Both the position numbers and the translations under genes were made by a program. The notes beneath the pieces were generated by a model. That model was given only the letters and a program-made list of their open reading frames with translations. It searched no databases and was not told where the DNA came from. Shown here in pieces: positions 8,812 to 61,310 of a DNA stretch of 64,000 bases. The stretch is from NCBI GenBank assembly GCA_902784585.1, contig CACZVM010000010.1, positions 1-64,000 of the forward strand, given 5' to 3'. The DNA is from an uncultured Bacteroidales bacterium (GTDB lineage Bacteria > Bacteroidota > Bacteroidia > Bacteroidales > Paludibacteraceae). The first letter of the stretch is position 1. Every line of letters begins with the position of its first letter.

Positions 8812-9537
8812 ATGGCAGTACAACTAACGCATATCAACAAGTCATTCGGACGGCAGCCGGTGTTGCGCGATGTGACCCTCACCATCCCCGACGGACAGAT
8901 CCTTGGTCTGCTGGGTCCGAACGGTGCCGGCAAGTCTACGCTGATGAAAATTCTGATCGGTCTATGGCGTGCCGACAGCGGCGAGGTGAAGGCTCCGCTC
9001 CGCATTGGCTACCTGCCGGAGAACAACCCGCTCTACGACGAGATGTACGTGGCTGAGTATCTTCGCTTTATGGCCCAAATGACCAATGACCAATTACCAA
9101 TTACCAATGTCGACGCGCTTATCGACCGTGTGGGCCTCACGCCCGAGCGGCACAAGCATATACGCGAACTGAGCAAGGGCTATCGCCAGCGCGTGGGACT
9201 GGCGCAAGCCTTGTTGGGCGACCCGGAACTCCTCATTCTCGACGAACCCACTACCGGACTTGACCCTAACCAGCTGGTGGAGATACGTGCGCTGATACGG
9301 GATATAACCAAATCACCACTCACCAAAAACGAAGTTAATCGCGCCCTTGCGGCAGAGAATGACCAATCACCAATGACAAAATCGCCTATTGTGATCTTGT
9401 CCACTCATATCATGCAGGAGGTACGAGAGATGTGCGATCGCGTCGTCATCCTCCATCATGGCCAGCTGCAAGCCGACAGGCTTATCAACGAAATAGAGGA
9501 CTTGGAAACACTCTTCAGACAAACGACTAACGACTAA
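8812..9537 (+). CDS. ABC transporter ATP-binding protein, GldA-like
   Basis: 241 residues with a complete ATPase core: Walker A GPNGAGKST, an IGYLPENNPLYDEMYV block typical of the GldA/CcmA-like ATPases of Bacteroidota, signature LSKGYRQRVGLAQ, Walker B LLILDEPTTGLDP and H-loop STHIMQEV. No permease gene is adjacent. Two segments are unusual: after Walker A (MTNDQLPITN) and between Walker B and the H-loop (KSPLTKNEVNR to QSPMTKSP) the protein is encoded by 7-base tandem arrays inserted in frame. The 3' end, including the TAA, lies in a third array that runs up to the ruvB start 6 bases later. Substrate unknown. Confidence 0.85.
   Translation: MAVQLTHINKSFGRQPVLRDVTLTIPDGQILGLLGPNGAGKSTLMKILIGLWRADSGEVKAPLRIGYLPENNPLYDEMYVAEYLRFMAQMTNDQLPITNVDALIDRVGLTPERHKHIRELSKGYRQRVGLAQALLGDPELLILDEPTTGLDPNQLVEIRALIRDITKSPLTKNEVNRALAAENDQSPMTKSPIVILSTHIMQEVREMCDRVVILHHGQLQADRLINEIEDLETLFRQTTND
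9080..9107 (+). repeat. 7-base array inside the ABC ATPase
   Basis: Four contiguous units: TGACCAA twice, then TTACCAA twice. 28 bases, in frame, in a surface loop of the ATPase. Confidence 0.9.
9360..9380 (+). repeat. Second 7-base array inside the ABC ATPase
   Basis: Units TGACCAA, TCACCAA, TGACAAA. A more degenerate stretch of the same kind (ACC at 7-8 base spacing) precedes it at 9305-9330. It lies between Walker B and the H-loop, where GldA-like proteins vary. Confidence 0.75.
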
Positions 9538-9543
9538 CGACCA
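9516..9543 (+). repeat. 7-base array at the ABC-ruvB junction
   Basis: Units CAGACAA, then ACGACTA twice and ACGACCA. It contains the stop codon of the ABC gene (9535-9537) and ends at the ruvB ATG. Confidence 0.85.
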
Positions 9544-10557
9544 ATGGAATTTGATATTCGACAACAGATGTCCGAGAAGGAGCAGGACAATGCCTTGCGT
9601 CCGTTGTGCTTTGCCGACTTCGCGGGGCAGAGCAAGGTGACCTCCAACCTCAAGATCTTCGTGGAGGCGGCTAAGATGCGAGGCGAGAGTCTCGATCACG
9701 TGTTGCTGTTCGGTCCTCCGGGCCTGGGTAAGACCACCCTGAGCAATATCATCGCCAACGAACTGGGAGTGGGCTTCAAGGTTACCAGTGGGCCGGTGCT
9801 GGACAAACCCGGTGACCTGGCAGGTCTGCTCACCTCGCTCGAACCGAACGACGTGCTCTTTATCGACGAGATCCATCGTCTCAGCCCGATAGTGGAGGAG
9901 TACCTCTATTCCGCTATGGAGGACTATCGCATCGACATCATGATCGACAAAGGCCCTTCGGCGCGCACCATCCAGATCGACCTGAACCATTTCACCCTCA
10001 TCGGGGCCACCACCCGCAGCGGACTCCTTACCTCACCGCTCCGGGCTCGTTTTGGTATCAACTGCCATCTGGAGTACTACGATGCGGACATACTGGCCGG
10101 CATCGTCAAGCGTTCGGCACGTCTGCTGCAGGTGGAGATCAACGAGCAGGCGGCAGGCGAGATAGCCCGTCGCAGCCGCGGTACGCCCCGTATAGCCAAC
10201 GCCCTGCTGCGCCGTGTGCGCGACTTCGCACAGGTCAAGGGGGACGGACGTATCGACTTGGAGATAGCCCGGTATGCCCTTGAGGCACTCAACATAGACA
10301 CCTTCGGTCTCGACCAGATCGACAACAAACTGCTGCTCACTATCATCGATAAGTTCCGTGGCGGACCGGTGGGCTTGAACACCATCGCAACGGCTATGGG
10401 CGAAGATGCAGGCACCATCGAAGATGTCTACGAACCCTATCTGATCAAGGAGGGATTCATCAAGCGTACACCTCGCGGACGCGAGGCGACAGAACTGGCT
10501 TATCGTCATTTGGGAAAAACACCGCTGTCGGCCGATGGCCAGCAGTCAATATTCTGA
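9544..10557 (+). CDS. ruvB: Holliday junction branch migration ATPase RuvB
   Basis: 337 residues, normal length. It is the hexameric motor that drives branch migration with RuvA during recombination repair. AAA+ motifs are intact: Walker [10 protein letters not shown], Walker [10 protein letters not shown], sensor 1 [10 protein letters not shown], then the arginine-finger region and the C-terminal winged helix ([17 protein letters not shown]). The start at 9544 directly follows a 7-base array and lies 6 bases after the ABC stop, so it is cotranscribed with the ABC gene. ruvA and ruvC are not in the window. Confidence 0.97.
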
Positions 10558-10570
10558 TTTCTCCGAAGAA

Positions 10571-12094
10571 TCACATTTGTTCGGCTATCTTGAGGGCGGC
10601 ATTGATGCCGTCCAGTGCGCTGCTGGTGATGCCTCCTGCATAGCCGGCACCTTCGCCGCAGGGGTATAGGCCCGCCGTACTCACCGACTGCAGCGTCTCC
10701 GGATCACGCGGGATACGTACCGCACTACTGCTGCGGCTTTCTACGCCCAGCACCACCGCCTCGTTGGTCAGAAAACCCGGATATTTCTTGTCAAAATCTC
10801 TGAATCCTTGTTGCAGCCGCTTGCCTATTGGTGCTGGCAGCCACTGGTCCAGACGGCTGGCTACCAGGCCGGGCAGGTAGCTGCACGGCGGCAGGTCGCG
10901 ACTCGCCTTGCCTTCCACGAAATCCCGCATCCGCTGGGCCGGTGCCGCTGATGGCTGATGGCTGATGGCTGATTGCTCATAGGCAAGGTGCTCCAGCGCT
11001 TCTTGATACTCCAGACCTCTGAGCGGATCGTCCCCCGCTATGTCCTCCGGATTGATTTGCACCACCATGCCGCTGTTGGCGTAGGGCGAGTTGCGATGGC
11101 TGGCCGACATCCCGTTCACCACGCACCCATCCGGTTCACTCCCTGCCGGAACGATATGTCCGCCGGGGCACATACAGAACGAATAGACGCCACGTCCGTC
11201 CACTTGCGTCACTAACGAATAGGAGGCGTTGCCGACAAAGTCTATAACGGAATGCTGATGGCTGACGGCTGACGGCTTCAGATGGTACATCAATCGGTTG
11301 ATCAGCGCCTGCGGATGTTCTATTCGCACACCCATGGCAAAGCCCTTGGTCTCTAGCTTCACGCCTTCCTCCGCCAGCATCCGATACGTGTCATGTGCCG
11401 AGTGTCCTATCGCCAATATGATCGGCGTTCCCGTAACCTGTAACCCGTAACCCGTAACCTCTTTGAGGCTTGTCACGCAGGCCTCAAAGTGTATCTCTCC
11501 TCCATGTGCGAGGATGCACTCTCTCATGCGGCGGATGATGCCGGGCAGTTTGTCGCTGCCGATATGCGCGTGTGCCTCGTAGAGTACTGTGTCGGGCGCA
11601 CCGAAATAGTGGAACAGTTCCATCACACGCTGCATGTTGCCGCGTTTCTTCGAGCGGGAGAATAGTTTGCCGTCGGAGAAAGTACCCGCACCGCCTTCGC
11701 CGAAGCAGTAGTTCGACTCGGGGTTCAGTCCTTCGTTGCGGTTCAGGAGTGCTATGTCCTTCTTCCTCTCGCTTACTTCCTTTCCCCGCTCATAGATGAT
11801 GGGCTTGATGCCGTGCTCTATCAGAGTGAGAGCCGCGAACAGTCCTGCGGGGCCGGCGCCGATGATGACTACCGAACGCTTAGCCTCATGCACGTCCCGG
11901 AACACCGGCGGCGTATACAGTGGGATAGGAGCGTCTTTGGGTACGGGGCGGCCCTGATCGTCGCAGAGAACAGTAAGATGCACGCGCAACTCTCGCTGCC
12001 GTGCATCTACCGATCGTTTCACAACGCGCCATTTTTGCTCTGCGGCGTAGGCGTCCCGTGGCGAAAGAACATATTGCAGTGTTTGTAACTGCAT
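10571..12094 (-). CDS. FAD-dependent dehydrogenase, COG2509 family
   Basis: 507 residues. The dinucleotide-binding motif GAGPAGLFAALTL is near residue 78, and the family's NRNEGLNPESNYCFGEGGAGTF-type region and C-terminal GLYPCGEGAGYAGGITS block are present. These are soluble flavoproteins of unknown substrate. Three regions (LKEVTGYGLQVTG, LKPSAVSHQHS, QSAISHQPSAAPAQ in the protein) are encoded by separate 7-base arrays, all in frame and all in loops, making this the most array-rich gene in the window. It lies 27 bases after recA and probably shares its promoter. Confidence 0.85.
   Translation of the reverse strand: MQLQTLQYVLSPRDAYAAEQKWRVVKRSVDARQRELRVHLTVLCDDQGRPVPKDAPIPLYTPPVFRDVHEAKRSVVIIGAGPAGLFAALTLIEHGIKPIIYERGKEVSERKKDIALLNRNEGLNPESNYCFGEGGAGTFSDGKLFSRSKKRGNMQRVMELFHYFGAPDTVLYEAHAHIGSDKLPGIIRRMRECILAHGGEIHFEACVTSLKEVTGYGLQVTGTPIILAIGHSAHDTYRMLAEEGVKLETKGFAMGVRIEHPQALINRLMYHLKPSAVSHQHSVIDFVGNASYSLVTQVDGRGVYSFCMCPGGHIVPAGSEPDGCVVNGMSASHRNSPYANSGMVVQINPEDIAGDDPLRGLEYQEALEHLAYEQSAISHQPSAAPAQRMRDFVEGKASRDLPPCSYLPGLVASRLDQWLPAPIGKRLQQGFRDFDKKYPGFLTNEAVVLGVESRSSSAVRIPRDPETLQSVSTAGLYPCGEGAGYAGGITSSALDGINAALKIAEQM
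10947..10974 (-). repeat. 7-base array in the FAD dehydrogenase
   Basis: Four units on the plus strand: GCTGATG three times and GCTGATT. Confidence 0.9.
11254..11274 (-). repeat. 7-base array in the FAD dehydrogenase
   Basis: Units GCTGATG, GCTGACG, GCTGACG on the plus strand. Close in sequence to the array at 10947 and, in the opposite orientation, to that at 33977. Confidence 0.88.
11432..11459 (-). repeat. 7-base array in the FAD dehydrogenase
   Basis: Units CGTAACC, TGTAACC, CGTAACC, CGTAACC on the plus strand. Confidence 0.9.
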
Positions 12095-12121
12095 AGCTAT
12101 CCGGGTGTCGATCCGATCGAC

Positions 12122-13162: not shown

Positions 13163-13190
13163 GTTTGTCTTGTCTTTTTGATTTAGCGTA

Positions 13191-13222
13191 CAAAAATACT
13201 ACAATTTTTTCATATATACAAA
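13191..13222 (-). promoter_or_regulatory. Promoter for recA
   Basis: On the minus strand TTTG (13222-13219), 20 bases, TATTTTTG (13198-13191). Divergent from the promoter at 13286. Confidence 0.8.
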
Positions 13223-14325: not shown

Positions 14326-14380
14326 GGGTGATAACGGGGTGATAACGGGGTGATTACCGGGTGATTACCGGGTGATTACT
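14326..14380 (+). repeat. Five 11-base tandem repeats
   Basis: GGGTGATAACG twice, GGGTGATTACC twice, GGGTGATTACT once, without gaps. The period is about one helical turn, so each copy presents the same DNA face. Confidence 0.92.
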
Positions 14381-14599
14381 GCGTTATTAAGCCTCCGTCA
14401 GCGGCCTCTCAACGCCCCGATCGACCTTTTTTTGCCATTCTTATACTATATTATATATTATATATATAATATATATTTTGTTGACCATTTTTGGAGTCTA
14501 ACAAGCGAAAATATTTTTCCACATATGCTGGCATATGTCATTTTTGTTGTATCTTCGTACGCTTTTTAAACACGCCTACCTAGTGGTCGGAGTCAATTA

Positions 14600-20025: not shown

Positions 20026-20027
20026 GA

Positions 20028-20051
20028 ATTTGTAGATTTGAAGATTTGAAG
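20028..20051 (+). repeat. 8-base array over the start of the giant adhesin gene
   Basis: Units ATTTGTAG, ATTTGAAG, ATTTGAAG, then ATA. The likely TTG start (20046-20048) lies in the third unit. This is the only clear array with an 8-base period. Confidence 0.85.
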
Positions 20052-32100: not shown

Positions 32101-34615
32101 TGACGGCGTCTATGTATACGGCTCCTTGCCCGGCTACTTCCTCGACGAGGCTTGGAAGGATGAGGGAAAATTTACCAACGAGGAGTGCCACCGCTATGTC
32201 AACTACGTCCGTGCCACAACACCGGGTGTAGCGGCCCCGAATGCACCGCAGACCAAGATCAACTCTATCCGCATCACCGGTGATGAATTCAAGACAGGCT
32301 TCCTGCTGGACGGATTTGTCATCACCAACCCCACCCGCGAGTTGACGATGTCGCCCGTGCTGATCAACAACGATAGTGCGGCTGTGCGCAACTGTCTCAT
32401 CGTCGACAACCGCATCGCCGGTCCCGACCACCCGATAGCCAATGTGAAGCACGGCTTGCTCTACAACTGCCTCTTCTACAACGACTCCGCAGCGGTGATG
32501 GTCAAGGTGGGCGCCGACGGACTGGTGCTCAACAATACCATTGTGACGAATAGTTCGGATGTGACTCCCATGGACGATACCGAGGCAACAGCCGGAGCCG
32601 TGCAGAACAACATCAGCGGACGACTGTCGTCGCTCACCTGCTTCGCGCCATACATGACCGCCAACAACCCCTACACGCTGCCCGCATACCTGACCAACCA
32701 CGAGCCGCTCGCCTTCCAGCTCCATGAGCAGAGTACGATGCTCAATAGCGGAACAATGGATACCGCACTGCCGTCCCTCTTCGACGACTATAAGGCGGAT
32801 AATATCATCAACTTCAAGTGGGACCGCGATGTGCTCGGCAACCCGCGTAAGATCAGCTCGTCGGTCGACAAGGGTGCACTCGAGACCTGGTATGTGGCGA
32901 AGAACCAGGCACAGGAGATCACGGCTATCACCAACAGGGTACCATATACCTCCACTGCGCCTCTGGAGCGTGACACCGCCTTTACCAAGAACTACGGCGG
33001 TCACCGCTATCCGCATCCGGGTTCGGTGGTCTATCTGATGGATAGCAGTGCGATGTCGATGCAGTATGCGAATCCCGACTTTGAGGATTTCCGCGGCCAG
33101 GATATCATCTTCTCGCCCGGCTATATGATGCTCAAGCCCGAAGCCTCCTTCTACGGCAACGGCTATAACGTGCAGCTCGGTTATGTGGCTGCCGAGAAAC
33201 GCTTTGTCAACCAGCGTTACTCTATGACCGCCTTCCCCTTCACTTATTCGAAAGGCAACATTACGGTCACGGGCTATAACAAGTCCACCGACGCGTTGAT
33301 CTGTGCCCTCTCGCCGTTTGACTTCAGCACCTACCAGTACAGCGGTGCCGCCCGCTCGCAGAAAGACTATGTCTTCCAGCCGACCAACTCGTCGCTCTGG
33401 CTACCGGTTGATACGCTCAACCGCACTGCTACCGAGGGTTACCTCATGGACTTCGGTGCCACCACCGACACCGTTCTCCGCTTCACGGCTTTTGCGTCTG
33501 TTGCAGGACGCTATGTCTATACCGAGGAAGAAGGTGCGGAAGACAAGATAGTCTATCTGACCCAGTATGACAACCGTACAGCCGGTATAGGCGAAGAACT
33601 CAATTTCACCCGTCAGGAGGATATGGGATGGAATATGAAGGGATTGCCGTGGCTCGTCAGCAACTACCGTACCGATACGGTGCTGGAGGAGGGTAACTAC
33701 CAGCGTCAGATGTTCATCCCGCATGTGTTCTACCATATGGACGGTGCGGGTGATGATGTCTCTGCCGGCGACCAGATGCTCACAGCCCGCTCGTGGGATA
33801 AGAATGCAATGATGTCGATGGGCAAGGCGTTCTTCACCCAGACGGCCACCACCGCCGACCGCGAGGCCGTAGCCTTCCATCTGCCATACTACGGCATGAA
33901 CGAGAAAGCCTCTCGACCCATTCTCCGTCTCTCCGCCAAGCGCTCCGGTCCCACCCAGATCAGCCATCGTTCGGCTGTCAGCCGTCAGGGGTCAGCCGTC
34001 ACCAGCGACTACCTCACCGTGATCCCCGATCAGGAGGCTGACAAATATGTATCCTACACCTATGGCCGTGACGGTATGAAATGGATCACCAATGACAGCA
34101 TGCCGTATGTCTATCTGATGGATAGCAGATGCCAGTCGCGTATCTCGCTGCTGGATGCCGCTCCTACCGAGGTAGATATACCGCTCGGAGTACAGATACC
34201 CGCGTCCTATCCGGGTGGAGCCTTCTGCTTCAGCCTGCCGGAGAAAGAGGCCTTCGCCGGTTATAGTTATGTATGGCTCATCGACCGTGTCAAAGGCCGC
34301 ACCGTCAACCTCATGGAGGAGGACTACGAGACCGATATAGCTGTCGGCCAGCAGAACAACCGCTTTGCCGTGCGTATCGGCGGCTTCCCCATGACCGACT
34401 CCAACAACCGCCGCACCTATCTCGTCTTTACCAAAGAGGGCAGTCTCTTCATCCGCGGCCTCATCGCCGGTGACCGAATCGATGTGTATACTTCGTCCGG
34501 CCAACTCGTTTATTCGGGTACTGCCGCCGCCACCGAGTGGTCACGACCGCTGCCTATCCAGCTCGGCTATGTCATCAAGATTAACGACAAACCCTACAAG
34601 ATACTCAATATCTGA
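28982..34615 (+). CDS. Giant modular beta-helix adhesin, C-terminal part (same gene after a -1 shift)
   Basis: About 1,877 codons continuing the previous frame. Beta-helix modules go on: GLTWETPTTDIQTAIDVL near 30385, GDGSSWENAFGQGQLQNAI near 31930, closing phrases VDIGIYEYQ near 30280, ERGAYECL near 31850, VDKGALETW near 32868. After about 33000 the character changes to non-helical domains. The last 60 residues (GDRIDVYTSSGQLVYSG, then GYVIKINDKPYKILNI) resemble a type IX secretion C-terminal sorting domain, as in Mfa5 (inference). The homologous sequence upstream of the first start-like codon (GGCIATNAVCDVANTLF) shows that the frame was entered by continuing translation, so this is not a separate gene. 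One missing base near 28980-28990 explains the break. A hairpin terminator follows at 34653. Confidence 0.82.
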   Translation, partial: TAGGCIATNAVCDVANTLFDNNEARRGLFPITASGDEYIPYADARQGFAGVISAATQSYLRVVNCHFMKNKAVAYPAIYNFTPNNEYGDDAKEKQFAFNTIFWGNEVFEVDNLDELDYIVPPSAQTINDFNTRYKGSRKGVFHYDPVEWDKYEKLFHEYDSLYTHYAAKNDTFNVKVTDKLAELRAQGDLVEGLYFCSYRKTYGPTGMKPTQEGYLLTRDEQRHFVDPRKKPVRTKTVHDFPVEIYDSLFTYVHGNNNTLINPINTATDGPNFKQPTFIAGIDGYMQNADWLLARMNLTTDQGWGHLKQTVTRGVGYFLTRYTEKTQYETFEEALAAANAELGTDTCTAWSVLPVRGLPIATFDDVQHPLGSIYNWYSKRYGTYMSDVSAPLPLKDQYYMAYSRTISDDEVSGNMDRISKHPKTGETDVYIDIGIYEYQYVQLDIKGQEIDTMWVATKTKDPIRHDGLTWETPTTDIQTAIDVLMSSHNNHDKYICLMGDDEGGTFSPSNVIDNRRSFIITSNTLEPLLPDSAEADYDYGVNSLTFLGGYSFDVKDAPRDPQAHPTIIEMPNTGTMAQRNQLFVVEDMTRQMVQANWQGEYTSRDSVVIPIVFDGITFINPYSTKDPSSDEGGYNNQGGLMSKKGGAAIYYRWQRRYEGVDGVYSPDFTRALHPDSALIDGRKVTLPKLTLSNCIFMDNGARDGVSREERSPAVRIDHGGGSSLIVNTLFHSNAGAPVYARTFDIIEEENDLAMVPNNVTIINCTSALNDGHIRLESDNSEVHNSLIWLDDLYNDTTVQLQMGTNQWDKTTNKNRAGIDGQMSYNAVWGCFQVPAWGEENSTGDPVGFNHPLSSDNNDVYKGPGFLSPYVTATTSEQRRERSFRLNPSIRTHEKANREIYLSRVFFRVYPDTCAETHNKYWRRSNGFKSLSFTGIVDELANDSDLASKPRVSGEGMERGAYECLAVLQRVLYVRPELPASSAGDGSSWENAFGQGQLQNAIDAAAVYTYMYQNLPREDRKAYVFVKGTGSSTEHYDIVARDGVYVYGSLPGYFLDEAWKDEGKFTNEECHRYVNYVRATTPGVAAPNAPQTKINSIRITGDEFKTGFLLDGFVITNPTRELTMSPVLINNDSAAVRNCLIVDNRIAGPDHPIANVKHGLLYNCLFYNDSAAVMVKVGADGLVLNNTIVTNSSDVTPMDDTEATAGAVQNNISGRLSSLTCFAPYMTANNPYTLPAYLTNHEPLAFQLHEQSTMLNSGTMDTALPSLFDDYKADNIINFKWDRDVLGNPRKISSSVDKGALETWYVAKNQAQEITAITNRVPYTSTAPLERDTAFTKNYGGHRYPHPGSVVYLMDSSAMSMQYANPDFEDFRGQDIIFSPGYMMLKPEASFYGNGYNVQLGYVAAEKRFVNQRYSMTAFPFTYSKGNITVTGYNKSTDALICALSPFDFSTYQYSGAARSQKDYVFQPTNSSLWLPVDTLNRTATEGYLMDFGATTDTVLRFTAFASVAGRYVYTEEEGAEDKIVYLTQYDNRTAGIGEELNFTRQEDMGWNMKGLPWLVSNYRTDTVLEEGNYQRQMFIPHVFYHMDGAGDDVSAGDQMLTARSWDKNAMMSMGKAFFTQTATTADREAVAFHLPYYGMNEKASRPILRLSAKRSGPTQISHRSAVSRQGSAVTSDYLTVIPDQEADKYVSYTYGRDGMKWITNDSMPYVYLMDSRCQSRISLLDAAPTEVDIPLGVQIPASYPGGAFCFSLPEKEAFAGYSYVWLIDRVKGRTVNLMEEDYETDIAVGQQNNRFAVRIGGFPMTDSNNRRTYLVFTKEGSLFIRGLIAGDRIDVYTSSGQLVYSGTAAATEWSRPLPIQLGYVIKINDKPYKILNI
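33977..34003 (+). repeat. 7-base array in the giant adhesin
   Basis: Units GTCAGCC, GTCAGGG, GTCAGCC, GTCACC. Near-complement of the GCTGACG units at 11254. In frame, encoding SAVSRQGSAVT. Confidence 0.85.
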
Positions 34616-38155: not shown

Positions 38156-38160
38156 TTATT

Positions 38161-38188
38161 CAACAATAACAAATCACAACTCACCATT
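38161..38188 (+). repeat. 7-base array between ftsA and ftsZ
   Basis: Four degenerate units CAACAAT, AACAAAT, CACAACT, CACCATT fill the gap exactly up to the ftsZ ATG. It belongs to the same A/C-rich sequence family as 9080 and 59709 (complement). Confidence 0.7.
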
Positions 38189-39427: not shown

Positions 39428-39455
39428 TTTAGATGTAGGATTTTAGATTTTTGAT
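39428..39455 (+). repeat. 7-base array directly after ftsZ
   Basis: Units TTTAGAT, GTAGGAT, TTTAGAT, TTTTGAT. It begins at the base after the ftsZ stop and stops 4 bases short of the next ATG. Confidence 0.82.
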
Positions 39456-39459
39456 ATAT

Positions 39460-43880: not shown

Positions 43881-43883
43881 CCC

Positions 43884-43911
43884 CTAAACCCAAAACGCTA
43901 AACACTAAACG
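43884..43911 (+). repeat. 7-base array between grpE and dnaJ
   Basis: Units CTAAACC, CAAAACG, CTAAACA, CTAAACG, filling most of the 36-base gap. Confidence 0.85.
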
Positions 43912-45083: not shown

Positions 45084-45973
45084 ACATAAAACGGTACATA
45101 CTACTCTGTACTTTGTACTTTGTATTCTGTGCTCCTCTATTTGCTTTGACGCCGATAGAGAAGCCCAACTTGAAGGAGCCGACGGGAATAGCGCCGGCTT
45201 TCTTCGGTCCTAATGCGTTCCCTGTGCCGGATATGTTAGACGGTTTGACGCAAAGCGAGTTGCATTTGGAATTAGCGGGTGAAGGATATTTCGGGTATGA
45301 CGGTAGTCGTACAGGAGATATCTTCGCGCGCGTGCACGTTCCTTTATTCACGCGTTGGGCGAACATCAGTCTATGGATGCCGGTGTACGGATGGTATAAC
45401 CAGTATGACGGGCGTGGCAGCGGTGCCGGCGACGTATATATATCCGCGGATATCCAGATATTACATAACGAATGGTTCAAGACGCCGAATGCCAAATATA
45501 TCCCGCAGATGACGCTTCGGGCGGCATTGAAAACGGCGAGCGGGGAACAGATGGAGCGTAGGCGCCATTATGACTGTCCGGGTTATTTCTTCGACCTCAG
45601 TATGGGTCAGTCGATTCCGATGAAGCATGTGACGCTTCGTTTGGCGGGTTCGGCAGGATTCTTGTGCTGGCAAACCGATAACGGGCGTCAGAACGATGCC
45701 TTCATGTACGGCCTGCAAGCTAAGTTGCGCCATGAGTACTTCTCAGTGCAAGCTACATGGGGCGGTTACGTAGGCTGGGAACACTACGGCGATGCGCCGA
45801 TGACCATCAAGGCACGCGTGGCCGGCCATGTCAAGGGCTTCGAACCCTACGTGCAGTATCAGTACGGCATCCACGACTATCCGTTCCACCAACTCCGTAT
45901 CGGACTGGTCTATCATATCGATATATTAGGTCGCTTTGCTAAAAGAGCAAAGACCGCTAAAGCAGAAAGCTAA
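45080..45973 (+). CDS. Putative envelope beta-barrel protein
   Basis: 297 residues with signal peptide ([17 protein letters not shown]). The mature protein has alternating aromatic strands ([46 protein letters not shown]), consistent with an outer-membrane barrel. Family not recognised. It starts inside the dnaJ stop (ATGA) and is followed 12 bases later by another barrel gene. The signal-peptide region is built from a 7-base array. Confidence 0.65.
45095..45129 (+). repeat. 7-base array in a signal peptide (45080 gene)
   Basis: Five units: TACATAC, TACTCTG, TACTTTG, TACTTTG, TATTCTG. It encodes the hydrophobic core [11 protein letters not shown]. Confidence 0.88.
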
Positions 45974-45985: not shown

Positions 45986-48442
45986 ATGTGTCGCCGAATT
46001 GTAATCTGTCTATTGTCCATTGTCCTTCTTCCATTGTCCCTCACGGCTGCGGCGAATATGGGGATGGATACCGTGCGCAGCGAGTGGTTTCGCGAGTGGT
46101 ATCAGTGGAACGAACTGAGCCACTATCTGGATAACTACTGCGACGTGACTACCTATCTGTCGGAGACCACGGGCGAGTGGACAACTCCTGAGCCTTATCT
46201 CTTTTCTATCAACGGCAACTCTTATCGTTGGAATAAATATTACCTGAACGGTTTTCGTGTGGACAGTCGTGTGGACGCCGGCGGTGCCTATTATCGGCCG
46301 GATATGTTTGCCCACTCGATGGCTATCGACTACAACCGCGGAGCGGTCTATTGGACGGTAGATAGTGTCCGTCCGCAACAGGTTGTGTTGTCCGGGCAGG
46401 CAGGTAACATAGGCGGCTACGGACCTTTGGCAAAGAAACTGCTGGATTTGCAACCCGGCGGCTCTGCTGTCAGCAGGCTGGCCGACGACCGGCCTATCCA
46501 CCACCGTCGGCACATCGTGGGTGCGGGCCATGTCGATGTGGTCTTTGTCCTTCCCGTCAAGGGAATCGGCTACACCCAACATGTATATGCCGACTATGGC
46601 GTACGCCGCCAGTTGCAGTGGGACTACACGGGTATTGCCGGCACGTATGATGCCGATTATTATCATGTGCAGCTGGATGGCCAATTGCCGGTGAAACCGA
46701 ACCGCGCTTTCGACCGTCTGCACTATATCATCCGTGCCGGTTATCGCGCCGACGCCTATAGGGAGTGGGGCTATAACGCCAACGAAGTGGCGCAACGCAC
46801 CGACCACTCGTTTTCGTTCTACGGCACCAAGTCGTTTGGCCGCTCGGGACAACTGACGACAGGTCTGACTTATGCGCTCCATCGTGATCAGCATCGTGAC
46901 TTGCAGTTCAGCCGTAACATCATCGACGTGGACGGCGAGTCGCTCAACCCGTGGTATCCCGACGGACACACCCACGCACTCAACTGGGCGGTCGACTATC
47001 GCTATCGGATACTGCCGTGGCTCCAACTGCATATAGACAGCTACAACTCGTTTCTGGCTTTCCGTCCCTCTCAGTCGGCGTGGACCAACACCGTGTATCT
47101 GCAGGGCGACAACATGTCGGCTCCCGTCTCTCTGTACGACTATCGTTGGCAGTCAGCCGCGTTTTGTTCCGGCCTGCTGGAGAATGCCGTCTCGCTGGAA
47201 GCCGACTATCAGGTGCTGCCCTGGATGCGCCTGCGCGCCAGTCTCTCCGCGACGCTCGACGGCGTGCTCCTTGGCGGGAAATCGAAGGTGACGCCGTGCT
47301 GGGAAGCGAAGGCAGACGTGCATATCGAGCCGGTCAAATGGTTTCGCGTGGACCTCATCGCCGCCAACTACCGGATACCCTATACCTACGAGCAGATACA
47401 GTTCATGAGCAACAGCTATCTGAACGGCGAGGTCTATTATGCCGGCACCAACACGCTGCTGACAACTACCGGCGGACAGTATCACCGGTGGGGCAAAAAC
47501 CTCTGGCAGCCTCAATACGTGGCAGTAGATATACCTATCGTCTTCACCATCGGTCGCCACGAGATCAGTATCCTCTCCAGTTTCAAGAAATACTACAACA
47601 CCTGGTCGGTCGGTATGGCGGAGGGTTATACCGATTCGTTCTATCCCATCACGGTGCAACAGGACGGTGGCAGTATCGCCTACGACATCTACGCGATGAA
47701 ACCGCAGGAGCGCTATTACGAGGTTACGAAAGAGCCTCGGACCGGCAGCGGCGTCTTCGGCTCACCGGTCTTTGCCTCCAACGTCATCAAGTATACCTAC
47801 AACGGCAAGAAAGTGTTCTTCTCGTTCAGCTGGCAGAGTTACGTGGAGTCCGGCACTTCGGCTCTGGGCAACGGCGTGCAGACCCAAGATGTCAATATGC
47901 TGAGCGAATCGCTGGCGAGTCCGAACCACGTGCTCGTGGATGCTAATATGCAGCAGACGGATCCCGCTATCCGTTCATTAGGACGGCTCAATCAGGATCG
48001 CGCCTATATCGCCCGTCTGCAGTTGGGCGTCAACATCACCGAGAATTGGCAGTTGAGTCTGAGTGGTAAGTTCCGCGACGGTATCGCTTTCTCGTCCTAT
48101 CGCACCTATCTGACGACCGACAATGCCGGTCACTCGCAGGCCGTCATCTGGAGTGCCAATACACGCGGTATCAACGTGCGCGATGCCAATTTCGGCAAGC
48201 GCACCGACTCGTTTTTCAATTTCGACCTGCGTCTGAAGTACCGCGGCGCCATCAAGGGTGTGCCCTTCTCGGTACAGGCAGTCTGCTATAACATCTGGGA
48301 TTTTGCTACCGAACTTAACGAATACTGCTTCTCTTACGACGGCGCTACCGGCAAGGATCAGAAAACCGGTCGTACGCCGCTTAGTCTGTGCACCCCTCGC
48401 GGTCTGATACTGAGTTTTGCGGTTGGCTTTGAGCGAAGATAA
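45986..48442 (+). CDS. Large outer-membrane barrel, TonB-dependent-receptor-like
   Basis: 818 residues. A signal peptide (VICLLSIVLLPLSLTA) is followed by about 150 residues that could be a plug domain (FRVDSRVDAGGAYYRPDMF to SGQAGNIGGYG), then about 600 residues of aromatic barrel strands, ending PRGLILSFAVGFERR, the closing strand typical of Bacteroidota TonB-dependent receptors. I see no carboxypeptidase-like extension and no clear TonB box, so it may not be TonB-coupled. It follows the 45080 barrel by 12 bases. Its last 62 bases are antisense to the end of the O-antigen-ligase-like gene. Confidence 0.68.
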   Translation: MCRRIVICLLSIVLLPLSLTAAANMGMDTVRSEWFREWYQWNELSHYLDNYCDVTTYLSETTGEWTTPEPYLFSINGNSYRWNKYYLNGFRVDSRVDAGGAYYRPDMFAHSMAIDYNRGAVYWTVDSVRPQQVVLSGQAGNIGGYGPLAKKLLDLQPGGSAVSRLADDRPIHHRRHIVGAGHVDVVFVLPVKGIGYTQHVYADYGVRRQLQWDYTGIAGTYDADYYHVQLDGQLPVKPNRAFDRLHYIIRAGYRADAYREWGYNANEVAQRTDHSFSFYGTKSFGRSGQLTTGLTYALHRDQHRDLQFSRNIIDVDGESLNPWYPDGHTHALNWAVDYRYRILPWLQLHIDSYNSFLAFRPSQSAWTNTVYLQGDNMSAPVSLYDYRWQSAAFCSGLLENAVSLEADYQVLPWMRLRASLSATLDGVLLGGKSKVTPCWEAKADVHIEPVKWFRVDLIAANYRIPYTYEQIQFMSNSYLNGEVYYAGTNTLLTTTGGQYHRWGKNLWQPQYVAVDIPIVFTIGRHEISILSSFKKYYNTWSVGMAEGYTDSFYPITVQQDGGSIAYDIYAMKPQERYYEVTKEPRTGSGVFGSPVFASNVIKYTYNGKKVFFSFSWQSYVESGTSALGNGVQTQDVNMLSESLASPNHVLVDANMQQTDPAIRSLGRLNQDRAYIARLQLGVNITENWQLSLSGKFRDGIAFSSYRTYLTTDNAGHSQAVIWSANTRGINVRDANFGKRTDSFFNFDLRLKYRGAIKGVPFSVQAVCYNIWDFATELNEYCFSYDGATGKDQKTGRTPLSLCTPRGLILSFAVGFERR
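46009..46043 (+). repeat. 7-base array in a signal peptide (45986 gene)
   Basis: Units TCTATTG, TCCATTG, TCCTTCT, TCCATTG, TCCCTCA. It encodes CLLSIVLLPLSLT. Confidence 0.85.
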
Positions 48443-49628
48443 AGACTATCGCAACGGCCCATAACGCGATACCGCAGTACAAACCGAACATACAATCGGT
48501 GAGCATATTGCAGACATATAGGACGGTGAATAAGATGGCTATTCGCCGTTTTTCGTTCGGTGCGCAGAGGGGAATAGAAAGCCATGCCAGCACAAAGAGA
48601 ATCAATCCGAAGATACCCAGTTCTATCAATTCCTGCAGGTATTGGTTGTGACAATGACCGAGTTGACCGAAATATTCAGGCACCTCGTTTTCCGGGAACA
48701 TCGACAGCATATAGACGCCATCTTGTCCGCATCCCAATCCCGTCCAGAAATAGTCCTCGGGTTGTTGCATCGCCGTTTCCCATAGCTGCGTACGCACTTC
48801 GGATTGTACCTCCATCGAGTGCAAACGCGGATGGAGGGAGAGCAGACCTGCACTCAGTACGATAGCGCCAATTACCATGCCGGCACTGAGGTACCATTTA
48901 TACCGTTGGCTTAACCACCAGTATAGGGCAATAAGGGTGATGATGGCCAGGCTGATAGCAGCTTGTCGTGAACCGGTAAGCACTACGCTGACCGCCATGA
49001 TCGAAGAGGTAATACCCCAGAGCCAACGACGATTGAACCATAGTTTGGTAGCAACGACGATACCCATCGTCTCCACCGCACCTAAGAAAAGGCGATGTTT
49101 GAGATGCGACAGATTGGAGGTGTAGAAATGCAACCATTCGAAGGTGCTGTAATCCCACAACGCATGCAGACATGGATGGGAATCGATGATCTCGCGGTGG
49201 TATAAAAGCAGCGTCATCGCGGCCGGATAGAAGAATGCGGCGCAGAGACAGGAAATAACGAATACTTTGCCTATCAGCCGCCAATCATATTGTTCATTTA
49301 CTCCCCATATACCTACCGGAACGAGTACCCCGAACGCGATATACCGCTCTATCTGCCATGACCACGCGGTGTGATCTCCGGCCCACAAACCGGAGAGTAA
49401 GTTCCAGCCGAACCATAGACCGAAGAGCCAGAAGGGGATTTGATATTTGATACCGGATATTTGATAGTTGCTATTTGGCCGGGGTAGCCATCTCAGTTCC
49501 AGGAACCAGGCGATGATCCATGCCACGCAAGCGTACCGCAGAAAAATCTGCGGGAATGGCAGTAGCACGACAGCTACTATGTATAGCGCATAGTTCACGC
49601 GTCCCATGAGGGCTCTATAGTTGTTCAT
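48381..49628 (-). CDS. O-antigen ligase/polymerase-like membrane protein
   Basis: 415 residues with about 10-11 hydrophobic helices and a large periplasmic loop holding FWTGLGCGQDGVYMLSM and LGHCHNQYLQELIELGIFG, the Wzy_C motif region of O-antigen ligases (GxGxG..., HNxYL...). Such proteins join or polymerise surface glycans at the periplasmic face. It ends an 11-gene operon, overlaps the gene before it by 14 bases and the convergent barrel gene by 62 bases. A 42-base 7-mer array encodes the short loop after the second helix. Ligase and polymerase cannot be told apart from sequence. Confidence 0.82.
   Translation of the reverse strand: MNNYRALMGRVNYALYIVAVVLLPFPQIFLRYACVAWIIAWFLELRWLPRPNSNYQISGIKYQIPFWLFGLWFGWNLLSGLWAGDHTAWSWQIERYIAFGVLVPVGIWGVNEQYDWRLIGKVFVISCLCAAFFYPAAMTLLLYHREIIDSHPCLHALWDYSTFEWLHFYTSNLSHLKHRLFLGAVETMGIVVATKLWFNRRWLWGITSSIMAVSVVLTGSRQAAISLAIITLIALYWWLSQRYKWYLSAGMVIGAIVLSAGLLSLHPRLHSMEVQSEVRTQLWETAMQQPEDYFWTGLGCGQDGVYMLSMFPENEVPEYFGQLGHCHNQYLQELIELGIFGLILFVLAWLSIPLCAPNEKRRIAILFTVLYVCNMLTDCMFGLYCGIALWAVAIVFIFAQSQPQNSVSDREGCTD
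49434..49475 (-). repeat. 7-base array in the O-antigen-ligase-like gene
   Basis: Six units on the plus strand: GGGGATT, TGATATT, TGATACC, GGATATT, TGATAGT, TGCTATT. 42 bases equals 14 codons, encoding NSNYQISGIKYQIP. Confidence 0.85.
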
Positions 49629-53101: not shown

Positions 53102-54074
53102 GATAGTAGAGTTTGTCGTTCAGTCGCCATTCGTCGTCTTCGCCAAGTCCGAAATAGACGCGGTCACCGATGGCAAAACAGATATGATTCATCAGCCGCT
53201 TAGGCATGACGGCGATATAGTGCCAGCGATCTTCCTGCGGGTTGTAACGCAACATGTCTTGCAGCACTTCGCCCGTCGTGGTCACACCGCCGTAGTGGAA
53301 GCCGCCGCAGAGATAGATAGCGTCGGCTGAGGCGCCTGAGGCGGCTGTCGTGCGTGTGCGGCCGGGCACTGCGGCACGTGCCTCCCAGTGGGTGCCGTCC
53401 ACCAGTTCCGCCCACCAGTCGAGACTGAAACGGTGGTAACCCGTTCCCATGAAATGTCGTCCGGCGCAGGTGCAACCTGTGCCGCCGAACGAACGGGTAG
53501 GGTAGCCCGAGAAGCTGACACCCACGTCTATCGAGTCCCAGCGGTTGTCGGTGATGGTATAACGAAACATGTCGCGGCGGTAGTTCCCGCAGAAGCCGAA
53601 ACCGACGTACAATTCTCCCTGTCCTACAAACGACGTAGCCGCGTCGGTATAAGCATTGGGGTAGTCTTGCAGTTGCTGCCAACTGTCGGTAGAAGGAGTG
53701 TAGGCCCACCAGTCTTGCAGATAGCTGGTGTCTTGACCGTAGTGGCCGCCGTTGTAGCCGAGTCCCAGATAGACGATGTCGCCGTCCACACACGCTGTGG
53801 CATTGACACGCGGCACGAGCGGTGTGCTGCCCAGGTTCTCCCATTGGTCGGTAGCCGGCGTATAACGCCAGAGGTCATTATGATAGATGCCTGCCGAGTC
53901 GCGCCCCGCGAAGACATACGCACGGTCGTTCACTACAAAACAGGTCGCACTGGCTCTGCCGCCTCCGGGCATCGATGCTGCCTCGTGTATCGGCAACTCT
54001 ACCTCCGGCCTGTATGGGCTGCAGCCAATGAGCAACAGCGCCAGCACTCCAATGATGTACTTTTCAGTCTTCAC
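53091..54074 (-). CDS. Kelch-repeat lipoprotein
   Basis: 327 residues. Lipobox LLIGC is followed by a beta-propeller of Kelch-type repeats: RAYVFAGRDSAGIYHNDLWRY, IVYLGLGYNGG, ELYVGFGFCGNYRRDMFRY, AIYLCGGFHYGG, RVYFGLGEDDEW. Such lipoproteins usually bind glycans or proteins at the surface. The start codon is GTG at 54074 and lies in a 7-base array; no ATG gives a signal peptide. It is 10 bases from lptB and overlaps the Wzi-like gene by 11. Confidence 0.82.
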   Translation of the reverse strand: MKTEKYIIGVLALLLIGCSPYRPEVELPIHEAASMPGGGRASATCFVVNDRAYVFAGRDSAGIYHNDLWRYTPATDQWENLGSTPLVPRVNATACVDGDIVYLGLGYNGGHYGQDTSYLQDWWAYTPSTDSWQQLQDYPNAYTDAATSFVGQGELYVGFGFCGNYRRDMFRYTITDNRWDSIDVGVSFSGYPTRSFGGTGCTCAGRHFMGTGYHRFSLDWWAELVDGTHWEARAAVPGRTRTTAASGASADAIYLCGGFHYGGVTTTGEVLQDMLRYNPQEDRWHYIAVMPKRLMNHICFAIGDRVYFGLGEDDEWRLNDKLYYLED

Positions 54075-54090
54075 TCTTCACTTTCTACTC
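54063..54090 (-). repeat. 7-base array at the lptB-Kelch junction
   Basis: Plus-strand units TTCAGTC, TTCACTC, TTCACTT, TCTACTC. It covers both the stop codon of lptB and the GTG start of the Kelch lipoprotein. Confidence 0.85.
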
Positions 54091-57169: not shown

Positions 57170-57170
57170 A

Positions 57171-59031: not shown

Positions 59032-59040
59032 CCCTAACTA

Positions 59041-59060
59041 ACCTTTGCGGCTGCAAAGGT
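59041..59060. repeat. Promoter palindrome ACCTTTGC-N4-GCAAAGGT
   Basis: Perfect 8-base arms around GGCT. One arm is the -7 element of the mlaE promoter. Identical arms occur at 59138-59157 (spacer GCTA) and 8718-8737 (spacer GACT). Confidence 0.8.
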
Positions 59061-59085
59061 ACAAATAAATTTTGACATACGCAAA
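59054..59085 (-). promoter_or_regulatory. Promoter of the envelope operon (mlaE onward)
   Basis: On the minus strand TTTG (59085-59082), 20 bases, TACCTTTG (59061-59054). Confidence 0.85.
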
Positions 59086-59113
59086 TAAAAAGCATTTTTA
59101 TTTCGCTCTTTCT

Positions 59114-59144
59114 CTTGTGTAGGTCCCAAAAAGCAGTACCTTTG
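59114..59144 (+). promoter_or_regulatory. Orphan promoter facing prmA
   Basis: CTTG at 59114-59117, 19 bases, TACCTTTG at 59137-59144. No normal gene lies downstream on this strand before the convergent prmA. Confidence 0.65.
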
Positions 59145-59294
59145 CGCTAGCAAAGGTTTCGAATACTAAAATGGACCTTGGAAAGAAGGAGACAACCAGC
59201 GATGGCTATAGTGCTCATGAGAATCTCATGAGATGTGTTTTGTAAAATACTTACAAATAAAGGAGTTATGAGTAAAAAGTGGAAATGCGATTAG
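59145..59294 (+). other. Transcribed region without a recognisable gene; two tiny ORFs
   Basis: Downstream of the orphan promoter lie a 24-codon ORF at 59171-59245 (MDLGKKETTSDGYSAHENL, then MRCVL), a perfect 17-base palindrome TCATGAGA-A-TCTCATGA at 59215-59231, and an 8-codon ORF at 59268-59294 (MSKKWKCD) with AAAGGAGTT 3 bases before its ATG, a Shine-Dalgarno site stronger than at most genes here. The last ends across the prmA stop codon. It could be a small RNA, a leader peptide or the 5' remnant of a deleted gene. Confidence 0.4.
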
Positions 59295-60085
59295 TTTATT
59301 TTCCTCAATTTCAGCATACACCAGTCGTTGACGGATCGTGAGTCAAGCAGCTGTAGTCCGCAGGCCTTTCCGGCAGCGATGAGGGTGGGCGCATCGGCGG
59401 TGTAGAAGCCGCTGAGCCAGAGTTGGCCTTCGTGTGCCAGGCAGGTCGCATACGCCTCCATGTTCTCAAGGAGGATATTGCGGTGGATATTGGCCAGGAT
59501 CAAATTGAAAGACGGAAGTTGAGAGGAGAACGGGGCTATATTGCCGCCTAATCGGACGTCAATGTCCACGCCGTTGAGAGTGGCGTTCTCGCGAGCATTG
59601 CTGACAGCTTTGTCATCAATGTCAAGCGCCAGTACGTAATCGGCTCCGAGATGCTTGGCGAAGATAGCTAGCACGCCTGTTCCGGTGCCGTGATCGAGAA
59701 CCTTAAAATTGTGATTTGTGATTTGCGATTTGTGATTTATAAGCGCGTCCGTCATCATTGAGGTGGTCTCGTGATGGCCTGCACCAAAGGCGCAATGAGG
59801 GATTATGCGGATGCCGAGCGGCAGTTCCTGCACCGGATGGTCGGCCTCCCAGGCTGCATTCCAGTTCTTATCCTCGCACTCCTTCGCTTGGATAAAACTC
59901 ACGCCTTCTGTAGCGGCACAAAAGACCTTGATCTCATCGGTGTTTTGTGTCCAGATTTCCGATGGGATATAATAATCTTCCCCATCGATTGTGTCCACCC
60001 CGAGATCGAATAACTGCTGTTCAAACAGATCCTTCTGCCACTCTTCGGCAAAACGGGTCTTAATGTGTAAAACGTGATAACGCAT
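59291..60085 (-). CDS. prmA: Ribosomal protein L11 methyltransferase
   Basis: 264 residues. It methylates L11 with S-adenosylmethionine. The SAM site VLDHGTGTGVLAIFAKHLGA lies at about 127-146, preceded by FGAGHHETTSMM, and the LILANIHRNILLENM motif follows. The stretch NHKSQITNHN just before the SAM motif is encoded by a 7-base array and appears to be an insertion. It overlaps folC by 26 bases. Confidence 0.93.
   Translation of the reverse strand: MRYHVLHIKTRFAEEWQKDLFEQQLFDLGVDTIDGEDYYIPSEIWTQNTDEIKVFCAATEGVSFIQAKECEDKNWNAAWEADHPVQELPLGIRIIPHCAFGAGHHETTSMMTDALINHKSQITNHNFKVLDHGTGTGVLAIFAKHLGADYVLALDIDDKAVSNARENATLNGVDIDVRLGGNIAPFSSQLPSFNLILANIHRNILLENMEAYATCLAHEGQLWLSGFYTADAPTLIAAGKACGLQLLDSRSVNDWCMLKLRKIN
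59709..59736 (-). repeat. 7-base array in prmA
   Basis: Plus-strand units TTGTGAT, TTGTGAT, TTGCGAT, TTGTGAT. Confidence 0.92.
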
Positions 60086-61310
60086 CGGATACTAGATAAT
60101 TGCTGCCCCCGATGAAGATGGCATCGTCTGCGGAAGCATGGGTGATAGCATACGTAATGGCCTCTTGCGGATCTTCTATGGCAATGCCGTTCTTGCTCCA
60201 CAGAGCGAGCATCTCTCGGGCTGAGCGGGCACGCTGGGTTGAGGGGCGCGTGAAGATATAATGGAAGCGTTCGCCATCCGGCAGCATCTGCATGACTATG
60301 TCGGTATCTTTGTCATTAACCATACCAAAGACGATGTAGATATGCGGATTAGGCAGGTTCTGTAGCTGTTGTGCCACATAACGGATGCCGTGGCTGTTAT
60401 GGCCGGTGTCGCAGAGGATGAGCGGTTGCTTCTGCAGCGTCTCCCATCGTCCGCGAAGACCTGTGAGTGTGCAGACATGTGCAAAGCCTTCGGCTATTTG
60501 TGAATGGTGAATTGTAAATTGTAAATTGTTCAGCGCCTTCAGTGCGACGTAGGCCGTCTGCAGGTTATGTTGCTGATAGATGCCGCGGAGTTCGCACTCT
60601 GGTACAAAGCGCATTCGGCAGCGGCGCAGATACTCACATTGGTCGGCAAACCAGATAGGTGCGTTGCACACCTTAGCGCGGGACAGGAAGACCGGCTCTG
60701 TCTCCGGTTGTGTCTCTCCGATGACGACGGGCACGCCTGGCTTGATGATACCGCTTTTCTCTGCTGCTATCTCCGCAAGGGTTGTACCGAGAAATTCCGT
60801 ATGATCCAATCCTATGTTTGTGATGACAGATAGGATAGGCGTGAGGATGTTGGTGCTGTCGAGTCGTCCGCCTAGTCCCACTTCAACGACGGCGATATCG
60901 ACCTGCTGCTTAACGAAATAGCAGAACGCCATCATGGTCATGGTCTCGAAGAATGAAGGTTGCACGTGGTCAAGCAGTTCCTTATGGCGCGTCACAAAGT
61001 CTGCCACATCGGCTTCGGGGATAGGTTGACCGTTGATGCGGATGCGTTCGCAAGGCGAGAGGAGGTGTGGACTGGTGTAAAGTCCCACACGCAAACCGGC
61101 TGCTTGAAGGGCGGCTGCCATCAGATGACATGTCGAACCCTTGCCGTTGGTGCCGGCGACGTGGATGGCACGCAGCTGTTGATGCGGATTACCAGCCTCC
61201 TCCATGAGCCGAAGCATGTTGTCCGGCCCCGGTTTGTAAGCCGCTGCGCCCACTTGATGAAACGGTGGACGAGAGGAGTACAAGTATTCTATCGCTTCGC
61301 TGTAATTCAT
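60060..61310 (-). CDS. folC: Folylpolyglutamate/dihydrofolate synthase
   Basis: 416 residues. It adds glutamate to folates with ATP. GTNGKGSTCHLMA is the P-loop, VEVGLGGRLDSTNI and ITNIGLDHTEFLG the family motifs, and CDTGHNSHGI the C-terminal one. The start at 61310 (MNYSEAIEYLYSSRPPF) is the homologous start; the frame extends upstream only into dnaE. Start and dnaE stop overlap (TAATG). A 7-base array encodes NLQFTIHHSQ. Confidence 0.93.
   Translation of the reverse strand: MNYSEAIEYLYSSRPPFHQVGAAAYKPGPDNMLRLMEEAGNPHQQLRAIHVAGTNGKGSTCHLMAAALQAAGLRVGLYTSPHLLSPCERIRINGQPIPEADVADFVTRHKELLDHVQPSFFETMTMMAFCYFVKQQVDIAVVEVGLGGRLDSTNILTPILSVITNIGLDHTEFLGTTLAEIAAEKSGIIKPGVPVVIGETQPETEPVFLSRAKVCNAPIWFADQCEYLRRCRMRFVPECELRGIYQQHNLQTAYVALKALNNLQFTIHHSQIAEGFAHVCTLTGLRGRWETLQKQPLILCDTGHNSHGIRYVAQQLQNLPNPHIYIVFGMVNDKDTDIVMQMLPDGERFHYIFTRPSTQRARSAREMLALWSKNGIAIEDPQEAITYAITHASADDAIFIGGSNYLVSDALSRFTH
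60500..60527 (-). repeat. 7-base array in folC
   Basis: Plus-strand units GTGAATG, GTGAATT, GTAAATT, GTAAATT. Confidence 0.9.

Follow-up and report, generated by a model that had tools for sequence, protein, structure and literature searches.

Heptanucleotide direct repeats in a many-unit form in a Paludibacteraceae genome

Introduction

The first 64,000 nucleotides of contig CACZVM010000010.1 (GenBank assembly GCA_902784585.1), hereafter the window, belong to an uncultured gut bacterium of the family Paludibacteraceae (Bacteroidales) and carry short tandem arrays that keep a 7-base period and change their unit sequence from place to place. What kind of process leaves such arrays behind? An earlier note, made from the sequence alone, had listed 16 of them and proposed that 7-base duplications arise from local sequence, as opposed to the dispersal of one element. 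The dominance of 7-base units among the longer bacterial repeats is itself an old question: in an early survey, heptamers were the commonest longer-repeat category in most genomes, for which the contact width of the polymerase was put forward as a cause (Mrazek et al., 2007, as cited in the available portions of PMC4692102 and PMC4679880). We find that the arrays belong to the known heptanucleotide direct repeats, here in a many-unit form, and that they probably result from slippage in 7-base steps combined with copying between sites and with selection.

Results

Period 7 stands far above its neighbours

The window corresponds to bases 1-64000 of contig C10 in a draft genome (G000; 1,634,244 bases, 21 contigs, 79% complete), whose closest named relatives, judged by FtsZ, are metagenome bins that bear the title Bacteroidales bacterium or Paludibacteraceae bacterium. 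A fixed-lag match scan (match +1, mismatch -3, threshold 12, with an equal number of matches demanded at each period and arrays accounted for by a shorter period removed) covered 1,578,235 of these bases and returned 200 arrays of period 7, 67 of them scoring 20 or more, versus 0, 5, 15 and 13 at periods 5, 6, 8 and 9. Longer periods gave 2 (period 10), 39 (11), 12 (12), 17 (14) and 19 (21) arrays, period 11 forming a smaller second peak. The Markov control (one sequence per contig) yielded 0 to 2 arrays per period and none at period 7, and E. coli K-12, sampled in two stretches of 50 kb, contained no array at any period from 3 to 15, so that chance is ruled out as their origin. The earlier note had made its case depend on the enrichment of period 7 over 5, 6, 8 and 9 throughout the genome, and on this point it stands.

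The same peak is found around ftsZ in 80 relatives (1.43 Mb), with 160 arrays of period 7 versus 0, 10, 18, 14 and 35 at periods 5, 6, 8, 9 and 11. Per Mb, period-7 arrays number 127 in G000, 126 in loci of the same genus and 59 in loci of other genera, with individual genomes ranging from 263 (G013, another genus, 76 kb) through 55 (G167, 200 kb) to 12 (G033, 80 kb) and 10 (G101, 200 kb). Period-7 arrays are thereby confirmed as real in the genome and its relatives, and the fixed period with changing sequence extends across the genus and into other genera.

Within the window, the fixed-lag scan at threshold 11 detected nine period-7 arrays, versus none in 20 Markov sequences, and Tandem Repeats Finder gave 17 rows of period 7, where 30 Markov sequences averaged 1.0 and reached at most 4. 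Rows of period 9 were also more numerous (10 versus 1.3), with no clear rise at periods 5, 6 and 8 (0, 0 and 3 rows). When the 16 listed places were scored by local lag matching against 50-base neighbourhoods of order-3 Markov sequence, each surpassed nearly all of these (P < 0.01, values that are flattering because the places had been picked by a reader), the weakest being 9360 (P 0.0088) and 38161 (P 0.0025). Eight of them pass this fixed-lag scan (9080, 9516, 10947, 11254, 11432, 45095, 59709, 60500), whose ninth hit, an AT-rich array at 14447, was absent from the list; five are weak Tandem Repeats Finder rows with scores of 34 to 45 (33977, 43884, 46009, 49434, 54063), and three are detected by local lag matching only (9360, 38161, 39428). 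Every listed place thus holds a period-7 stretch above chance, some of them weakly.

Units form families that recur within genomes

The arrays of G000 fall into 52 unit classes, five of which (AATCACC, AAGAATT, AATTCAC, AATTACC and AAAAATT) cover 110 of the 200, and the picture of mutually unrelated units does not hold. Counted by pairs of arrays, a unit is shared in 1403/19900 (7.1%) of pairs within G000 and in 316/32000 (1.0%) of pairs between G000 and relatives; among the relatives' loci the counts are 29/278 within and 221/12442 between loci, the within figures being inflated by a few neighbouring arrays that the scan split. G013 has its own set, with AATTAGC in 6 of 20 arrays and sharing in 22/190 pairs. 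The tetranucleotide RATT occurs in 70% of units in G000 versus 22% after shuffling of letters (relatives, 42% versus 19%; G013, 45% versus 25%), a richness that may stem either from a biased process or from a few families having spread.

For pattern searches we used sets of 178 genomes of the genus, 200 of the family (33 genera) and 392 of the phylum. G000 contains 142 matches to the pattern (ATTGGTN)3, which is found in 30 of the family genomes (4 of the 33 genera) and in 23 of the phylum genomes. The reversed pattern, used as a control, is itself frequent in some genomes other than G000 (110 in G013), in line with a preference of such genomes for other units. Dispersal was therefore dismissed too readily in the earlier note, since unit families recur more within than between genomes (G167 excepted) and the ATTGGTN family has spread jointly with a hairpin core described below.

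Among 72,556 plasmids, (ATTGGTG)5 and (ATTGGTA)5 together matched 7 distinct records, all cyanobacterial, which makes the likeness to cyanobacterial heptamers drawn in the earlier note an apt one. AATTCAC matched three gammaproteobacterial records and one cyanobacterium, AATTAGC one cyanobacterium, and two scrambled units matched, respectively, two Segatella records plus one cyanobacterium and three enterobacterial records. A special tie to cyanobacteria through a common unit was rejected, as the other and the scrambled units also find cyanobacteria, gammaproteobacteria or Segatella; the ATTGGTN family occurs in both phyla, and we claim no more than that. On a plasmid of the cultured Bacteroidales Segatella copri DSM 18205 (L201, 19999-20037), a 7-base array fills the spacer between genes for a 'smalltalk protein' and an amidase. 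Long composite arrays, with unrelated-looking heptamers in succession and the 7-base register kept, are seen in L097 (14932-15034 and 15792-15890).

Arrays change between species at orthologous sites

The genus allows the step of seven to be put to the test, as sites without an array, with an array and with other units are directly comparable. Most of the 61 relatives viewed have no clear array in the ftsA-ftsZ spacer, and where arrays exist their units are AACCAAT, AATTGAA, AAAGTCG, AAAATGG, AATTTTT, ATAATTG and AGCCAAA (within the linked group of 12 loci, L133 and L147 look mislinked through repeat-like flanks and are excluded from this list). In L086, the end of ftsA reads GATAACCAATAA and runs on as the repeat. 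A site within murC is occupied by arrays in 13 loci, which use eight different units between them. At one site, coding by our own reading, L106 and L143 have AAAGGTG and AATGGAC, respectively, between flanks that are 95% identical. Arrays are therefore not ordinary conserved coding sequence, as orthologous sites often lack an array or bear other units.

Among close pairs (flanks at least 88% identical, arrays on both sides), the length difference is a multiple of 7 in 31 of 44 comparisons, which count each pair from both sides, and is non-zero in 12 of these. Length differences at the murC site are divisible by 3 in 113/118 cases, as they must be in coding sequence, versus 154/396 in the ftsA-ftsZ spacer, and 43/118 at the murC site are multiples of 7, a mild peak. 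Identical units are found in 67% of 24 close pairs of linked arrays, 6% of 126 more distant pairs and 0.8% of 13,732 unlinked pairs. The comparison of orthologues proposed in the earlier note thus shows arrays present or absent among relatives and changing by whole units between close ones.

For 15 of 82 arrays, an orthologous site that lacks the array contains the complete unit, whereas 200 shuffles of the units gave 4.9 on average and 10 at most; with words of 9 bases only 7 do so, versus 1.2, and one or more shuffles also reached 7. This excess suggests that part of the arrays probably started locally. Directional growth was rejected, as mismatches along the arrays show no polarity (mean position 0.50, 357 mismatches).

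One family travels with a hairpin core

The flanks of ATTGGTN arrays are common to several loci and hold a core that starts CCCCTTCCGTCTAGGG and contains the hairpin CCCCG-TTTAA-CGGGG. It is present in 12 copies in the whole genome, 11 of them in the fetched sequence; ten of these 11 have a scored array within 40 bases, the eleventh keeps remnants, and nine, read by eye, have at least one full ATTGGT unit to the right of the core as well. The core was found in 26 of the 178 genus genomes (G000 included) and in five of the 200 family genomes, all of this genus. None of the 11 copies viewed in relatives has an ATTGGT array beside it, which indicates that the core predates its combination with ATTGGTN arrays, as seen in G000.

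Three called genes contain the core, of which uvrB and an RlmI-like gene were compared with solved structures; the third holds a diverged copy. The UvrB linker, 45 residues long in G000 (array plus core), measures 15 in G208, the closest relative found (DNA 78% identical in a part of the murC-ftsZ region), so that the array and core together form an insert of 30 residues (90 bases) absent in G208. The alignment of UvrB to structure 2fdc extends to residue 385 and resumes at 417, with one residue between. In 29 relatives' loci this linker is bare in 20, carries other insertions without a clear period-7 array in eight and could not be resolved in one; the varied insertions make the linker a general landing place. 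In the RlmI-like gene, the core is read in a different frame than in uvrB.

A second hairpin, TTAGCCCTAAAGGGCACGATTATTT, is present 16 times in G000 and occurs in 64 of the 178 genus genomes; 4 of 13 fetched copies in G000 have an array within 40 bases, and near 4 of the 17 copies inspected in relatives the period-7 score reaches 8 or more. Its copies show paired stem changes (e.g. GTCC/GGAC, ACCC/GGGT), and four of them stand in tandem with a 40-base step at C2 99597-99741. A dispersed hairpin-like repeat around GCCCCTCCCTGAAGGGAAGGG has eight copies in G000 (one at C11 34886-34922), seven of them within called genes, and the UvrB linker of G334 (L220) contains an insert that resembles it. 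The linker of G252 (L222) has an in-frame insert with an 11-base repeat by eye (ACGAGACGACA).

Hairpins as general seeds of arrays were rejected, the excess of stems being mild: 36% of arrays have a stem no more than 50 bases away, versus 25% of the starts of co-oriented spacers and 13% of random places. Nor does a single mobile element carry every array, as only 19 of 200 lie within 30 bases of a dispersed repeat by self-comparison, a rough count in which the largest cluster chains unrelated pieces. A known RNA family behind the arrays was likewise discarded, a tRNA alone passing in the window.

Placement relative to genes

According to our own codon-usage gene caller (1124 genes, 85% coverage), 101 of the 200 arrays are intergenic, 29 lie at gene edges and 70 within genes, which corrects the placement given in the earlier note (junctions, gene ends, signal peptides or variable loops). 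Arrays occupy 103/608 spacers between co-oriented genes, 3/59 between convergent and 2/112 between divergent ones (Fisher test, co-oriented versus divergent P 1.7e-6, versus convergent P 0.015). Among spacers between co-oriented genes, the shortest have the highest density of arrays (4.5 per kb). Where a co-oriented spacer measures 150 bases or more, 22 of 43 arrays start no farther than 25 bases from the upstream stop codon, and 5 of 43 end that close to the next start.

Arrays within genes are stop-free on the sense strand in 51 of 70 cases and on the antisense strand in 4, and of the 92 intergenic arrays flanked by co-oriented genes, 15 lack a stop codon in the sense direction. A 7-base unit passes through all three frames, so that a unit without stops is translated into a heptapeptide (NHQSPIT for AATCACC). 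Such arrays are found, within the window, in a GldA-like ATPase, an FAD-dependent protein, a PrmA-like enzyme and FolC (the GldA, PrmA and MurC assignments rest on matches that score below the curated cut-offs of NCBIfam models). The FolC array falls in a stretch that aligns gap-free to structure 1o5z, and the PrmA-like protein has 4 extra residues at its array in the alignment to structure 1ufk. Arrays within genes exemplify an in-frame route by which noncoding repeats enter conserved enzymes. The features of the window are collected in Table 1.

Table 1. Period-7 arrays and related sites of the window
Feature	Position	Strand	Context
Array AATGACC/AATTACC, 4.6 copies	9078..9109	+	In GldA-like ABC ATPase gene 8812-9537; encodes TNDQLPITN
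Weak array AATGACC/AATCACC	9353..9380	+	GldA-like gene 8812-9537; part of ENDQSPMTK; 13/21 lag matches, P 0.0088
Array AACGACT, 3.4 copies	9517..9541	+	Spans stop codon of GldA-like gene 8812-9537; next gene co-oriented
Array AGCCATC (sense), 4.4 copies	10947..10977	-	Within FAD-dependent protein gene 10571-12094
Array AGCCGTC (sense)	11254..11277	-	Within FAD-dependent protein gene 10571-12094
Array ACGGGTT (sense)	11430..11459	-	FAD-dependent protein gene 10571-12094; encodes EVTGYGLQVTG
Weak array GTCAGCC	33974..34001	+	Within open reading frame (ORF) 29021-34615
murC array site of 13 relatives	34916..34955	+	No array in the window; boundaries by flank mapping, varying among relatives
Weak period-7 stretch	38157..38184	+	ftsA-ftsZ spacer
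Weak period-7 stretch	39432..39459	+	Directly past ftsZ stop codon
Weak array CTAAACG	43882..43911	+	Spacer from ORF end 43880 to ORF start 43917
Array TACTTTG	45102..45124	+	Spacer of co-oriented genes (own gene caller)
Weak array TGTCCAT	46007..46039	+	Spacer (own gene caller)
Weak array ATTTGAT	49438..49477	-	Between called genes 46064-48442 and 49615-50928
Weak array ACTCTTC	54059..54082	-	Where two co-oriented genes of the minus strand meet
Array AAATCAC (sense), 4.3 copies	59709..59738	-	In PrmA-like gene 59291-60085; encodes NHKSQITNH
Array AATTTAC/AATTCAC (sense)	60498..60529	-	In folC 60060-61370; encodes NLQFTIHHS

The period-11 peak corresponds to a second array family with 39 members in G000, 37 of them intergenic (window example, 14326-14379). 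Its recurring units include TAATCACCTAC, TCTCGATAATG and ACTTATCACGC, and identical 59-base arrays stand at C1 22874, C2 46840 and C4 49863; these are possibly arrays of regulator binding sites, for which we regard them as candidates. Upstream of murC, the window also contains two very long co-oriented ORFs (20016-34615; 3039 and 1864 amino acids) that overlap by 115 bases.

Discussion

A proposed model of slippage, copying and selection

The observed period, unit-sized length differences, within-genome families, differing units at orthologous sites, hairpin composites and in-frame insertion are the ground on which we consider a combination of slippage, inter-site copying and selection the probable explanation. 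A seed would come from the local sequence or, as a copy, from another array of the genome, and would then be lengthened and shortened by 7 bases at a time, most simply through slipped-strand replication. Arrays might be copied to new sites ectopically, through gene conversion or template switching, in one family (ATTGGTN) apparently along with the hairpin core, and such copying would let each genome acquire its own recurring families. Selection would retain arrays just past stop codons, in co-oriented spacers and in protein loops (in frame and mostly stop-free), and rarely between divergent genes. The arrays as such presumably have no cellular function.

Several observations weigh against this explanation. 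Copying is directly indicated for ATTGGTN with its hairpin only, the other families resting on recurrence, and few arrays by the rough count lie near dispersed repeats. G167, with 11 arrays, shows little sharing (1/55 pairs) and is an exception to recurring families. The length differences in the ftsA-ftsZ spacer have no peak at multiples of 7 (65/396), and convergent spacers, where tolerance should be high, are somewhat poor in arrays. Plain slippage predicts a wider spread of periods than one sharp peak, and the growth and copying of arrays are deduced from sequence, not watched in a living population.

The best placed of the alternatives is the one held in the earlier note, that arrays arise by 7-base slippage of resident sequence without any copying between sites. 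The modest excess of units at array-less orthologous sites speaks for such local birth, as do the ftsA end of L086 that extends into its repeat and the greater similarity of linked arrays (flank identity 72-88%) than of unlinked ones. Local duplication thus survives as one part of the process. As the sole source it is rather unlikely, since families recur within a genome, the hairpin composites indicate copying, and unlike units are swapped at one site between nearly identical flanks in L106 and L143.

The preference for short co-oriented spacers and the vicinity of stop codons could instead mean that intergenic arrays serve as functional spacers, binding an RNA-binding protein or tuning the translation of the next gene, and translational regulation has been proposed for TAACTGA repeats (MacGregor, 2015, PMC4679880, in the portions available). 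We consider this quite improbable, given that the unit is not conserved at orthologous spacers, that most relatives lack an array there and that 70 of 200 arrays lie within genes.

To the sharp period, the genome-specific families and the great differences in array density among species of one genus, a dedicated enzyme with a fixed 7-base step, such as a short-template polymerase or a reverse transcriptase that makes and spreads arrays, would offer another answer. This also appears doubtful at best: no candidate gene was found, although none was searched for, and the published accounts of heptamer excess, as far as the available text of PMC4692102 and PMC4679880 goes, rely on ordinary polymerase slippage. 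An artefact of metagenome assembly, which the draft state of the genome and the metagenomic origin of its named relatives might suggest, has a negligible probability, as the peak is repeated in 80 loci from separately recorded genomes, the frame is preserved at the murC site, and arrays are also present in plasmid records from cyanobacteria and from Segatella copri DSM 18205.

Slippage together with copying and selection therefore remains our preferred explanation. A bolder reading, a long shot in our eyes, would be a genome-wide process of fixed 7-base step that copies arrays, sometimes with hairpin cargo, and overwrites spacers and loops of essential enzymes (UvrB, MurC, PrmA, FolC) with heptamers specific to the lineage. 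If true, such a process would also act in cyanobacteria and other heptamer-rich bacteria, through a dedicated enzyme.

Comparison with known repeat systems

Several systems share features with the arrays of G000, where period 7 rises far above the neighbouring periods at many dispersed places. The STRR sequences of heterocystous cyanobacteria comprise several heptanucleotide units per genome, and are alike in this respect, by description only. Simple-sequence contingency loci, which underlie phase variation and include the heptamers of the Haemophilus hmw genes, resemble the arrays in having units whose length is not a multiple of 3. They are placed in promoters and at the 5' ends of surface genes, whereas in G000 divergent spacers are nearly free of arrays and housekeeping enzymes carry them (UvrB, FolC and the PrmA-like enzyme among the identified genes, a subset of the 70 genic arrays having been classed).

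The heptameric G-rich repeats of Xanthomonas and Nostoc, which are able to form quadruplexes, are likewise intergenic 7-base arrays with fast change of length and sequence among close species, but the units of G000 are mostly AT-rich (Rehm, 2015, PMC4692102, in its available portions, where heptamers of Calothrix are also mentioned). The hairpin core recalls the Rickettsia palindromic elements, a palindromic hairpin repeat found in frame in unrelated housekeeping genes (available portions of PMC10969869 and PMC2996958). Those elements measure about 150 bases and encode one conserved peptide, whereas the UvrB insert of G000 has 90 bases, the core is embedded in heptamer arrays and its frame differs between uvrB and the RlmI-like gene.

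Closest are the TAACTGA repeats of Beggiatoaceae, Cyanobacteria and five Bacteroidetes, with two sets in Paludibacter propionicigenes (MacGregor, 2015, PMC4679880, as far as available), so that the statement in the earlier note that no characterised equivalent is known in Bacteroidales was too strong. A short and partial literature search returned no report of many-unit heptamer arrays in Paludibacteraceae. Both systems consist of dispersed, mostly intergenic 7-base direct repeats; some TAACTGA repeats overlap the stop codon of the upstream gene and some lie inside ORFs in their stop-free direction (same source), and G000 has the same arrangement at gene ends and within ORFs. Yet TAACTGA itself is the unit of none of the 200 arrays of G000 and of one of 20 in G013, and where in the former system one unit dominates and similar heptamers are rarely repeated (in the available text of PMC4679880), G000 has dozens of unit classes. 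The arrays described here are thus members of the known heptanucleotide direct repeats that differ from TAACTGA repeats by their lineage-specific families, their insertion in the middle of conserved enzymes and their hairpin core.

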